A DNA stretch of 46,041 bases, taken from assembly GCA_012728955.1 (NCBI GenBank), contig JAAYED010000112.1:1-46041 (forward strand), written 5' to 3'. Shown piece after piece: positions 29,877 through 43,322 of the stretch (the first letter of the stretch is position 1; the number at the start of each line of letters is the position of its first letter). The notes below the pieces were generated by a model that was not told where the DNA came from, ran no database searches, and worked only from the letters and a program-made list of their open reading frames with translations. Source of the stretch: Chloroflexota bacterium (GTDB lineage: Bacteria; Chloroflexota; Anaerolineae; UBA1429). A program made the translations under genes and the position numbers.

Positions 29877-30153
29877 GCACTCCTCCGCAGGCTGTGCGGT
29901 AACGGATGACGGCGGCGCGCTCAGATCACAGCGGATGCTCAGGTGACAGCATTGTACCGGCAGCCCTGACGGGCCGCCAGTGCGCCATGGGCGGCAGTGG
30001 AGGGCCTGCCCGCCATGCGTGCCGGGCTCTGCCGCGATGGAGAGCTGCCGGGCCAAGCGGCAGAATAACGGCGTGCGCCGCACCGGGCCGCGGGCCGCGC
30101 GCCGTGGCCCGCCGCGCCGTTCGCATTTGCGAACAGTTCCCGTGGCGCCCCTC
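29877..30153. other. Intergenic region with a 16-base dyad
   Basis: No gene seen. GTTCGCA-TT-TGCGAAC (30119-30134) is a perfect inverted repeat 19 bases before the -35 of the LexA-controlled promoter and could bind an activator or a second regulator. Confidence 0.5.
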
Positions 30154-30182
30154 TTGCAGGGAAGGGAGTTGTCCACTACACT
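30154..30182 (+). promoter_or_regulatory. SOS-type promoter P1 of the terminase operon
   Basis: TTGCAG (30154-30159), 17-base spacer, TACACT (30177-30182), then GGGA and the LexA box. The same arrangement recurs at 42058-42105. Confidence 0.7.
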
Positions 30183-30187
30183 GGGAA

Positions 30188-30205
30188 TTAGAACATATGT
30201 TCTAA
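30188..30205. promoter_or_regulatory. LexA (SOS) box
   Basis: TTAGAACATATGTTCTAA is a perfect 18-base palindrome containing GAAC-N4-GTTC, the LexA site of Gram-positive-type bacteria. It lies a few bases downstream of the -10, over the expected start, and 37 bases before the first ATG of the operon. Repression by LexA and induction by DNA damage are expected. Confidence 0.85.
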
Positions 30206-30242
30206 TCATCCGCGATGGCCCGTGCCCTGGAGGAGAACGCCC

Positions 30243-31094
30243 ATGACCAAGCCCACTGCGCCTCTGCATGCCTCCCTGGAGCCCGCCCTGCGGCCCTTGC
30301 TGGCGGCCCTCTGCCGCGCCCGTCCGCAGAGTCCGCTGGCCCGGCAGCTGGGCGGCGCGGCGCGCTCTGAAGCGCCGATGTCCGCAACGCCGCTTTCCGC
30401 AGCGCCGCTTTCCGAAGCGCCCCTGTCCGCAGCGCCGCTTTCCCAAGCGCCGATGCCAGTGGCGCTCTCGGTGCTGCCGCCCGCCCCGGAGGTCCCCCTG
30501 CAGGACGACCTGGCCCTCATCGACCGGGAGCTGGCCCGCCTGCTGGCGGTGCGGGAGCTGGTGCTGCACTGGATGGAGGGGTTGCGCGGGCCCGATACGG
30601 CCGGGCGTTCCCCTCTCTCGCCCTCGGGTTTCTTGCGGGCCTGGAGCGAATCCACCGGCCGGGTGATCCAGCTGTTGCGTGCCCGGCGCGAGCTGGCGGG
30701 CGCCCCGGCGGACGCCCTGCTGGATGCGGTCTATGCCGAGCTGGAGCAGTTGCTGCCGCCGCCGGAGGGTTCCTCCGCGGCGCCGGTCGCTGTCCCGGCA
30801 GAGCCCGCAACGCCCGCTGCTCCCACCGCCGTGGCATGCGCACGCGCCACAGAAACGGCCGGCGCCCCGCCCGCTCGTGTGGCTGCACCTGCGAGTGGCG
30901 GTGTACCGGCGGCACCACCTGCTGAAGGGTGTGCCGCCCCCGCCGCCGCTGCCGCCGTGGCATGCGCACGCGCCACAGAAACGGCCGGCGCCCCGCCCGG
31001 TCGTGTGGCTGTTGCGTGTGCGGGCGTCGCCCCTGCCGGGCTCGCCGCGAGCCCCCCGCTCGCCGCTGGCCTGCCCGCCGGAGGTCCCCTGTGA
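30243..31094 (+). CDS. Ala/Pro-rich protein of unknown function, first gene of the SOS operon
   Basis: A 283-residue protein I do not recognise. Residues 43-72 are six pentapeptide repeats (APLSx type) encoded by six 15-bp units at 30369-30458. Residues about 90-165 form the only globular-looking part, a set of charged helices (DLALIDRELARLLAVRELV, VIQLLRARREL, LLDAVYAELEQLL). The rest is Ala/Pro/Gly-rich and includes a 19-residue segment present twice, due to a 58-bp direct repeat (30828-30885, 30954-31011). GGAGGAG precedes the ATG. It overlaps the terminase gene by GTGA. By position it could be a small terminase subunit, but I see no direct similarity. Confidence 0.75.
   Translation: MTKPTAPLHASLEPALRPLLAALCRARPQSPLARQLGGAARSEAPMSATPLSAAPLSEAPLSAAPLSQAPMPVALSVLPPAPEVPLQDDLALIDRELARLLAVRELVLHWMEGLRGPDTAGRSPLSPSGFLRAWSESTGRVIQLLRARRELAGAPADALLDAVYAELEQLLPPPEGSSAAPVAVPAEPATPAAPTAVACARATETAGAPPARVAAPASGGVPAAPPAEGCAAPAAAAAVACARATETAGAPPGRVAVACAGVAPAGLAASPPLAAGLPAGGPL
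30828..31011 (+). repeat. In-gene 58-bp direct repeat pair
   Basis: 30828-30885 and 30954-31011 differ at one base and are 126 bases apart, keeping the frame. Both encode the same Ala/Thr/Pro-rich segment. Confidence 0.85.
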
Positions 31095-32653
31095 TCCCCC
31101 GGGGCGGATCTCCCGCCGGAGGTGCCACGTCCGCCGCAAGGAGAACCGCCGCCGGAGGTGCCGCCTCCGCCGGCCGCCCCGCGGCCGCCCTGGCCCGTGC
31201 CATGGGCGATATCGGCGCCTTTAGCGCCCTGATCCTGCGCAGGCCCCTGCGTCCCTATCAGCTGGCCCCCGCCCGGGCCATCGCCCGCTCGGTGCTGGGC
31301 GGCCTGGGCCACACCTATGCGGTGATGATGTCGCGCCAGGCGGGCAAGAACGAGACCTCGGCCCAGCTGGAGGCCTGGCTGCTGCAGCTCTACCGCCGGC
31401 GGGGCGGCTCGATCATCAAGGCCGCGCCCACCTATCGCCCGCAGGCCCTCAACAGTCTGCTGCGGCTGCGCTCGGTGCTGGCCGGGTCGCCCCTGCCGCC
31501 GCTCACCGCCGGCGCCGGTGGACGTCTCTCCTGCGGCAACGCCGCCATCGCCTTTTACTCGGCGGCCCGCGGAGCCAGCGTGGTGGGCGCCACCGCCGAC
31601 ATCCTGCTGGAGGGCGACGAGGCGCAGGATCTCGATCCCACCCGCTGGCAGAAGGATTTCATGCCCATGGCGGCCGCCCGCGCCGCCACCACCGTGCTCT
31701 GGGGCACCGCCTGGACCGCCGATACCCTGCTGGCCCGCACCATCCGCGGCCTCGAGGAGCAGCAGGCCCGCGACGGCATCCAGCGGGTGTTTCGGGTGCC
31801 CTGGCAGGAGGTGGCCCGCTGCTCCCCCGCCTACGGGCGCTTTGTACAGGGCGAAATCGCCCGGCTTGGCGCCCGGCACCCGCTGATCCGCACCCAGTAT
31901 CTGCTGGAGGAGCTGGAGGACCAGGCAGGCCTCTTTTCCTCCGCCACCCGTGCCCTGATGCAGGGCACCCATCGCCGCGAGCGGGGTCCGCGGCCCGGAG
32001 CCAGTTATGCCCTGCTGGTGGACGTGGCCGGCGGGCTGGATGTCTCTGCCGCCGCTGGTGTAACCGAAGCGGGCGATGGCCGGCGCGACAGCACCGTGGC
32101 CACCCTGGTCGAGATCCAGCAGACGCCGCCCGGCGCGCCCGCCGGCGACGGGGCGTCATCGCTGGAGGGACTGCCCCGCTACCTCGTGCGCGATCGCATG
32201 ATCTGGACCGGCGCCGAGCACCATGTGCTGCTGGGGGCCCTCTCGACCCTGGCAGAGCGCTGGGCGGTGCGCCATCTGGTGATCGACGCCACGGGCCTGG
32301 GTGCCGGCCTGGCCTCGGCGCTGGGTGCCCGCCTGGGTCCCCGGGTGATCCCCTTTATCTTTGGCACCCACTCCAAGAGCCAGCTGGGCTGGCGATTTTT
32401 GGCGCTCTGCAACTCGGGACGCTTTCAGGATCATGCCCCGGACGGCAGCCCCGAGCAGGAACGCTTCTGGCGAGAGGTGGCTGCCGCCCGCTATACGCTG
32501 GGCGAGGGCCCCGGGCAGGGCCTGCGCTGGGGGGTGCCCGAGGGGGCCGGCCACGACGACGCCCTCATCTCGGCGGCCCTCTGCGCCGCGCTGCCTCAGC
32601 AGGCCCTGCCCAGCGGTGAATCGCACATTGTCGAGTCGGAGGAGTGGTTATGA
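31091..32653 (+). CDS. Phage-type terminase large subunit (ATPase and RNase H-like nuclease)
   Basis: A 520-residue TerL-like DNA packaging motor protein. ATPase: adenine-side Gln in PYQLAPARAIA, Walker A SRQAGKNE (81-88, Lys86), Walker B LLEGDEAQD (Asp176, Glu177) and a coupling-type LWGTAW. Nuclease: three acidic positions of the RNase H-like fold in LLVDVAGG (Asp311), LVIDATGLG (Asp399) and GHDDAL (Asp489/Asp490). All catalytic residues are kept, so it looks functional. GTG 31091 overlaps the previous stop (GTGA) and has GGAGG before it; the first 37 residues are low-complexity. It overlaps the sigma-like gene by ATGA. No portal, capsid or tail gene is adjacent, which is unusual for TerL. 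Confidence 0.9.
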   Translation: MIPRGGSPAGGATSAARRTAAGGAASAGRPAAALARAMGDIGAFSALILRRPLRPYQLAPARAIARSVLGGLGHTYAVMMSRQAGKNETSAQLEAWLLQLYRRRGGSIIKAAPTYRPQALNSLLRLRSVLAGSPLPPLTAGAGGRLSCGNAAIAFYSAARGASVVGATADILLEGDEAQDLDPTRWQKDFMPMAAARAATTVLWGTAWTADTLLARTIRGLEEQQARDGIQRVFRVPWQEVARCSPAYGRFVQGEIARLGARHPLIRTQYLLEELEDQAGLFSSATRALMQGTHRRERGPRPGASYALLVDVAGGLDVSAAAGVTEAGDGRRDSTVATLVEIQQTPPGAPAGDGASSLEGLPRYLVRDRMIWTGAEHHVLLGALSTLAERWAVRHLVIDATGLGAGLASALGARLGPRVIPFIFGTHSKSQLGWRFLALCNSGRFQDHAPDGSPEQERFWREVAAARYTLGEGPGQGLRWGVPEGAGHDDALISAALCAALPQQALPSGESHIVESEEWL

Positions 32654-33330
32654 TGGCTGCAGCTGCGGGGGGCGCCCCCCTTTCAGTAGAGGAGCGCGAG
32701 GCGCTCTGGCGCGAGGCCTGGCTGATGGTGCGTCGGCACTGCGGCGGCACCCTCAGCCGGCTGCGCCGCGGGTGGGGCGGCTGGTACGATGCCGACGACT
32801 TTTATCAAGACTGTTACCTGGCCTTTGAGGCGCTGCTGGAGCGCTGGGCCCGGCAGGGTCTGCCCGCGGGCGAGCTCTGGTCCGCCTGGCGCTGCTATCT
32901 TTGGCGGGGCGGCGGGCAGATCCTGCGCAGGCCGCCCCAGCGGCTGGGTGTGCGCGAGCCCTGCAGCGTCGCCGACCTGGCCGGCCTGCTGGACGCCCCG
33001 GAAGCCCCCGTGAGCGACGGGCTGGCCCGCGCCGTGCTGGAGCAGCTGGTGGAGCGTGCCGACCCGCTGGCGCAGCTCCTGCAGCGGGAAGAGCGCGGCA
33101 GCGGCGTCGCGCTGCTGGCGCGGCTGCTGGAGGGCCTGCCCGTCGGCCAGCGTGCGCTGCTGCGTGCCCGTTACCTGCAGGGCATGAGCGTGGCCGAGCT
33201 GGCCTGCCGGCTGGGGGTATCGCCGGCGGTGGTGCACAGCCGCACCCATCGGGCGCTGGCCACTCTGCGCCGCCGCGCGCGCCAGATGGCGCTGGCTGGG
33301 GCTTGCGCATCGCCCTGCCGGCGGCCATAA
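32650..33330 (+). CDS. Sigma-70-like (ECF-type) factor, last gene of the SOS operon
   Basis: A 226-residue protein with a region 2-like segment (YDADDFYQDCYLAFEALLERW) and a clear region 4 (LLEGLPVGQRALLRARYLQG, then VAELACRLGVSPAVVHSRTHRALATLRRR). The linker between them is longer and Leu-rich. It may direct RNA polymerase to other genes or act like a phage late-gene regulator. The ATG at 32650 follows GGAGG and overlaps the terminase stop as ATGA. No anti-sigma gene is nearby; LexA control of the operon would be the switch. Confidence 0.85.
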   Translation: MMAAAAGGAPLSVEEREALWREAWLMVRRHCGGTLSRLRRGWGGWYDADDFYQDCYLAFEALLERWARQGLPAGELWSAWRCYLWRGGGQILRRPPQRLGVREPCSVADLAGLLDAPEAPVSDGLARAVLEQLVERADPLAQLLQREERGSGVALLARLLEGLPVGQRALLRARYLQGMSVAELACRLGVSPAVVHSRTHRALATLRRRARQMALAGACASPCRRP

Positions 33331-42086: not shown

Positions 42087-42091
42087 GGGAC

Positions 42092-42107
42092 TAGAACAAA
42101 CGTTCTA
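42092..42107. promoter_or_regulatory. LexA (SOS) box
   Basis: TAGAACAAACGTTCTA contains GAAC-N4-GTTC at 42094-42105. It starts a few bases after the -10 and covers the expected transcription start, 22 bases before the GTG start codon. Confidence 0.85.
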
Positions 42108-42128
42108 ATCACCAAGGAGCCCCTTGCC

Positions 42129-43322
42129 GTGGAGCGTACCGATCTCACACCGACGCACCTGCGCACGCTGGCCTGGCTGGAGGCGCTGCCGGGCTCCCGG
42201 GTCGGCACCGCGCCCCAGACCCTGGCGGCACTGGCGCACCAGCGGGGGCTGGCCCCCCGCACCCTGCGGGAACACCTGGCGCGGCTGGAGCGGTCGGGCC
42301 TGCTGTGCCGCACCAGCTGCGGGCGGGCGGGGCTGGCGCTCAGCCTGCCGCCGGTCGCTGCTCCGGCCAGTGGCCCGCCGCCCGCTGCGCCGCTCCGTGC
42401 GCCGCTCTGGGGACCGGCACCGGCGCAGCGCTCCGGCGCACCCGCCCCACAAGAGGCACCGGCCCAGGATGCCGGCGGCCAGGGTGCTGCGGCTGCACGC
42501 CCTGCGGAGGGGCACAGCGCGGCGCTCCTCCAGGCAGTGGGGGTGTACCCCGTGGTGGCGCGCCGCCTGGCTCAGCAGCCCTGGGTGACCCCCGAGGTGA
42601 TCCGCGGCTGGGTGCGCCTGCTGCAGGGCAACGCCGCCGTACGCAATCTCGCGGCGGTGCTGGTGTATCGCCTGCAGGATCCCCGTCGCTGCCTCTTTCC
42701 GCAGGAGGCACGCCGCCTGCCGCCGGAGCCTCCGCTGCCCGATGAGCCCGGCCTGCGCCCCCGGCGCCTGCGGCCCGTGGGGAGGCCGGCGCCATCCATG
42801 GGGGAGCCGCTGCACGTGCAGCTCGCACTGGACGCGGCGGTGGAGGACGACGGCGTCGAGGACGACGGCGTGGAGGACGATGGCGGGGGGGACCACGGCG
42901 TGGAGCACGCTGGCTGCGCAGGGGAGGGCGGGCAGCCGGAGGCGACCCTCTCTGTGGGCGCTCCGCTGGCGGAGCGGCCGCCGCAGCAGGGCAGGGAGGA
43001 GCTGGATGCCCTCTGGCAACAGGTGCGCGCCGTGCTGGTTCGCCACATGCTCCCCGGCTCCGATCTGGTCTGGCTGCGCCGTGCCCGCCCCACCGGGCTG
43101 GAGTATGGCCTGCTGCGGGTGGCCGTGTACAGCCCCCTCTCCGCCCACTGGCTGAACGCCTGTGGTCTGCCCCAATGTCTTGACGAGATCCGCCAGGTGG
43201 TGGGCCGGCCGCTGCGCCTGGTCTTTTACCCGGGCGCCGAGTTTGAGCTGGCTCCCCGGGACGACGCGCCGGCCTCTGCCAGCGTGGCTGCAGCGTGCAT
43301 CGCCCGTGGCACCGGCACCTGA
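42129..43322 (+). CDS. Winged-helix protein with C-terminal DnaA-N-like domain, LexA-controlled
   Basis: A 397-residue protein. Residues about 5-75 are a winged helix-turn-helix (LRTLAWLEALPG ... RTLREHLARLERSGLL) like those of plasmid and phage replication proteins. An Ala/Pro linker leads to a middle helical region (LLQAVGVYPVVARRLAQQ, VLVYRLQDPRR), then an acidic low-complexity stretch with three VEDDG units encoded by a 15-bp repeat (42840-42884). The last 100 residues (WQQVRAVLVRHMLPG ... LLRVAVYSPLSAHWLNA ... IRQVVGRPLRLVF) resemble the DnaA N-terminal domain, which binds helicase. A replication-initiator-like role is inferred. GTG 42129 follows AAGGAG. Confidence 0.8.
   Translation: MERTDLTPTHLRTLAWLEALPGSRVGTAPQTLAALAHQRGLAPRTLREHLARLERSGLLCRTSCGRAGLALSLPPVAAPASGPPPAAPLRAPLWGPAPAQRSGAPAPQEAPAQDAGGQGAAAARPAEGHSAALLQAVGVYPVVARRLAQQPWVTPEVIRGWVRLLQGNAAVRNLAAVLVYRLQDPRRCLFPQEARRLPPEPPLPDEPGLRPRRLRPVGRPAPSMGEPLHVQLALDAAVEDDGVEDDGVEDDGGGDHGVEHAGCAGEGGQPEATLSVGAPLAERPPQQGREELDALWQQVRAVLVRHMLPGSDLVWLRRARPTGLEYGLLRVAVYSPLSAHWLNACGLPQCLDEIRQVVGRPLRLVFYPGAEFELAPRDDAPASASVAAACIARGTGT

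Follow-up and report, generated by a model that had tools for sequence, protein, structure and literature searches.

Why does a phage DNA-packaging gene lie among ordinary host genes, in one operon with a sigma factor and behind an SOS-type palindrome? The operon occupies positions 30188–33330 of the window, the 46,041-nucleotide stretch of DNA analysed here, which is contig C79 of a Chloroflexota genome (assembly of 2.64 Mb in 317 contigs, 89% complete). A LexA-type palindrome is followed by three same-strand genes in 4-base overlaps, encoding, in order, a TerS-like protein, a large terminase subunit (TerL), and a predicted ECF-like sigma factor (Table 1). Our favoured answer, to which we assign a probability of roughly 0.6, is that these genes handle packaging and control for an SOS-induced, multi-locus gene-transfer-agent (GTA)-like system.

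The layout had been described in a first-pass annotation, and the coordinates and the GTGA and ATGA overlaps of its three genes were verified. Its neighbours are, as stated there, ordinary host genes. A full prophage around the operon had been named beforehand as a refuting finding; none was found in the window, and we noticed no integrase or replication genes there or next to the capsid operon described below.

Table 1. Positions of the features discussed, in the window unless a locus is named.
Feature	Position	Strand	Remark
Second palindrome GTTCGCATTTGCGAAC, candidate activator site	30119..30134		about 70 bp upstream of LexA box
Candidate -35/-10, TTGCAG-N17-TACACT	30154..30182	+	under consensus scan threshold; position conserved in relatives
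LexA/SOS-box palindrome TTAGAACATATGTTCTAA	30188..30205		zero mismatches; 20 perfect bases with flanking A and T
Gene 1, probable TerS, Ala/Pro-rich	30243..31094	+	position, family homology
Gene 2, large terminase subunit (TerL)	31091..32653	+	GTGA overlap with gene 1; profiles, motifs, PDB
Gene 3, predicted ECF-like sigma factor	32650..33330	+	ATGA overlap with TerL gene; Sigma70_r4_2, alignment, structure
Portal	locus L151 9879-8467	minus	C176
Protease-capsid	locus L151 8454-6364	minus	C176
Connector	locus L151 6002-5370	minus	C176
Baseplate hub	locus L151 4991-3024	minus	C176
Opposite-strand gene, 237-251 aa	L083 6604-7359; L086 5642-6355; L089 5190-5942	opposite	coordinates as oriented in each locus

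The identity of TerL draws on several comparisons. The protein matches the PHROG terminase large subunit (E=2e-5) and, below the family cut-off, Pfam Terminase_6C (E=3.7e-4); since Pfam Terminase_6N has no match in the window genome, TerL was traced by sequence instead. Its PDB sequence matches are TerL chains, with the nuclease domain included. The ATPase and nuclease residues noted at first reading are kept in 22 TerL orthologues: the Walker A-like RQxGK (R82–K86), E177 of DEAQ, and the acidic nuclease positions (D311, D399, H488–D490). The best match among phage records, Bacillus phage vB_BboS-125, is of low identity (35.5% over 56%, proteins alone compared). Gene 1 is homologous to the gene preceding TerL in family members; because it has no Pfam match, its identity as the small terminase subunit (TerS) is inferred from its position before TerL, and is probable. 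The third gene had been called sigma-70-like, in agreement with its match to Pfam Sigma70_r4_2 (E=6e-14). No significant Pfam match to region 2 was obtained, and the N-terminus is region 2-like in alignment. Sigma factors, led by ECF types, are the top structural matches of the gene 3 model (best E 0.026, over most of the length). By these predictions gene 3 is an ECF-like sigma factor, with sigma-2 and sigma-4 domains only. The gene occurs at full length only in the window's family.

The control region was then compared with those of relatives. The 18-base palindrome is perfect, as first reported, and palindromes of the TTAGAACATATGTTCTAA type have an expectation of 0 in shuffled sequence. 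Its reading as a LexA box is supported by conservation: a box precedes TerL in 8/8 family loci with upstream DNA, and, among named Chloroflexota loci, LexA boxes lie upstream of TerL in 16 of 74 (17-fold enriched, p=5e-11). Boxes also precede five of the nine portal (capsid) operons of the window's family; none was found at the window genome's own capsid operon. The promoter had been called good, which is an overstatement: a consensus scan of the operon's upstream region gave no promoter, and the candidate hexamers are plausible because those of relatives are better and lie at about equal distance from the box. A genome search for LexA-type promoters, proposed by the first-pass annotation, was performed with TAGAACN4GTTCTA-like sites (≤1 mismatch). 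It returned seven sites in the window genome, including the operon's own and two in tandem before uvrC; the others precede an ImuA-like recA-family gene, a Rad52-like gene, either a small HTH gene or the hydrolase-like gene divergent from it, and, at 42092 in the window, a further HTH gene. The presence of such genes behind these sites places the operon's box in a credible SOS regulon. Elsewhere in the family, the genes with LexA boxes are, portal operons aside, mostly repair, HTH, or unidentified. A lexA gene was not found in the 89%-complete window assembly; 13 of the 15 family members have one at E≤0.001, and 11 of these score over the family's cut-off. The second SOS box in the window lies before the HTH gene (42091–43322), whose homologue in genome G409 is transcribed divergently from the portal operon, with one LexA box serving as the shared site.

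A second palindrome lies upstream of the LexA box. In 1.76 Mb of DNA, GTTCRC-N4-GYGAAC is nearly confined to sites preceding the TerL/sigma or portal operons of the window's family, and a similar site is present, in full or in part, in most family TerL promoters. The palindrome-plus-LexA composite was also tried as a regulon definition and proved too strict, with four matches in 15 family genomes. In genome G403 (contig C462, locus L089, 5040–6569), tandem palindromes, LexA box, and sigma gene are retained, TerS and TerL are lost, and no capsid gene was found in the genome.

If TerL packages DNA, where are the heads? The search for portal, capsid, and protease genes, likewise proposed at first reading, located them on another contig, C176, so the description of TerL as stand-alone does not hold. 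Using capsid profiles built from relatives (two types, MCP-A and MCP-B), a single protease-capsid gene of type MCP-A was found in the window genome, within a minus-strand operon of portal, protease-capsid, connector, and baseplate hub genes, and flanked by host genes. MCP-A is present in the window's family, and MCP-B is absent from it. The capsid's best phage-record match, Microcystis phage Mae-JY22, is again of low identity (29.5% over 90%, proteins alone compared). The hub protein is similar to gp44 of phage Mu and to VgrG-type hubs, with a model of low confidence (pLDDT 51). No tape measure or tail tube was recognised in the gene set, and the particle may therefore be short-tailed or incomplete. 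In the window genome, all parts of the TerL and capsid gene set have open frames.

The two halves were followed across the phylum. Of 400 Chloroflexota genomes, 120 contain a TerL match, in most cases with roughly 40–50% identity and usually once per genome; named carriers include the isolates Leptolinea and Pelolinea, Thermomicrobiales, and Anaerolineae. Either capsid type occurs in 96 of the 120 genomes with TerL versus 10 of the 280 without it (Fisher 6e-57, relatedness ignored), leaving 24 of 120 without both types by the two profiles. Within the window's family, most TerL-bearing members have a capsid gene, and both TerL and capsid are missing from two members whose genomes are each 99% complete (G382 and G136). 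The distance between TerL and capsid is 0.1–1.7 Mb in several complete genomes and 3–25 kb in others. The TerL tree groups by host family, dN/dS in close pairs is 0.10–0.26, and TerL and capsid distances in the window's family are correlated (Mantel r=0.57, p=0.0024). All three lines of evidence point towards vertical maintenance, in line with the domesticated module that had been proposed and, for the conservation and tree, as the first-pass annotation had suggested checking. One TerL family pairs with two capsid types, found together only in genome G305, a pairing that implies an exchange of modules in the past. In linked versions from relatives of the same class (family f5), the genes are compact, running from TerL to two tail-like genes, are flanked by host genes, and include GH25 endolysin or holin genes. 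Two small single-contig genomes (G048 and G007; loci L059 and L061) carry TerL near portal and/or tail-like genes, with the capsid absent by both profiles.

GTAs are defined by (i) tailed-phage-derived proteins, (ii) endogenisation, often at several loci, (iii) mostly vertical inheritance, (iv) packaging of mostly random host DNA, (v) a full gene set that cannot itself be packaged, and (vi) delivery of DNA to other cells (PMC9662315). At the gene level, the packaging and structural proteins are tailed-phage-derived; the gene set is endogenised over several loci (C79 for TerL and C176 for the capsid operon); and the TerL clades and Mantel correlation above speak for mostly vertical inheritance. 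Locus distances in complete genomes suggest that the full gene set may be too spread out to be packaged together. As the genome-testable features are present and the system is known from genes alone, we call it GTA-like rather than a proven GTA. With RcGTA-type agents of Alphaproteobacteria it shares a multi-locus organisation, structural and packaging genes, vertical inheritance, and a TerS/TerL pair (PMC9662315; PMC6854486), a likeness of gene make-up and inheritance between a studied agent and one represented by its genes. Unlike RcGTA, it belongs to a different host phylum, has an ECF-like sigma gene in the TerL operon, and carries a LexA box at the packaging operon itself.

In the proposed mechanism, LexA would leave the conserved box at the promoter upon DNA damage, and TerS/TerL would be produced together with the sigma factor. 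Heads would come from the unlinked operon on C176, and TerL would fill them with any host DNA at hand, which would then be released to kin. The sigma factor and/or a factor binding the shared GTTCRC-N4-GYGAAC palindrome may couple the TerL and capsid loci; since LexA boxes lie directly on the capsid operons of several relatives, a sigma cascade would not be the sole route.

The same parts could be read in other ways. The capsids might take up host DNA and serve to kill competitors, not to transfer genes, as in a PBSX-like particle. PBSX-like defective prophages are SOS-induced, as the proposed system would be, and host-DNA packaging is proposed; SOS control, the structural-only gene set, and the holin or endolysin of the linked versions all fit. 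PBSX genes form one cluster. Those of the window system, unlike that single cluster, are scattered, and neither a toxin nor an adsorption-specificity module was recognised. We think this reading unlikely; the genomic data do not distinguish it from a GTA. Slightly less likely still is chance survival of remnants from one or several decaying prophages. The lack of integrase and replication genes nearby would be expected of such remnants, as would the state of G403 and the missing capsid in some genomes; the open frames, purifying selection, vertical pattern, conserved promoter, and strong TerL-capsid co-occurrence despite lost linkage all speak against it.

A working split phage or satellite, packaging its own DNA, is suggested by IMG/VR contigs with linked TerL, portal, and capsid (phages or host loci). 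We regard it as improbable: the parts are single copy, on different contigs, and among host genes, and replication and integration genes were not noticed at either locus. Least credible is the alternative offered at first reading, an SOS-induced DNA-cutting or defence module. The TerL nuclease domain and the lack of adjacent capsid genes are compatible with it, but the genome does contain capsid and portal genes, whose occurrence follows that of TerL, and no defence genes were noticed among the operon's neighbours. Of the original proposal of a scattered GTA-like or defence system, the GTA-like half is thus sustained by the capsid genes on another contig, while no evidence was found for the other.

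We give even odds to the broader proposition that an SOS-switched GTA lineage extends across much of Chloroflexota and that, in one family, a dedicated ECF-like sigma factor couples unlinked packaging and capsid loci. At least three clades of GTAs, in a few host groups, are formally recognised (PMC9662315). No report of a GTA system in Chloroflexota or Chloroflexi was found in titles and abstracts (bioRxiv outside the scope), which is weak evidence of novelty. If particles were shown, they would represent a new lineage of particles for DNA exchange among bacteria. A phylum-wide candidate that includes the isolates would give a testable gene-exchange route in a large, hard-to-culture phylum, as well as an example of particle production possibly governed by DNA damage together with a dedicated sigma factor.

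Two features of the TerS region deserve mention. In three family members, an opposite-strand gene with no Pfam match lies between TerS and TerL (before sigma in G403; Table 1). In gene 1 itself, Ala/Pro stretches recur and one segment is nearly duplicated; several of its counterparts in relatives have a Cys-rich N-terminus that is absent from the window's copy.
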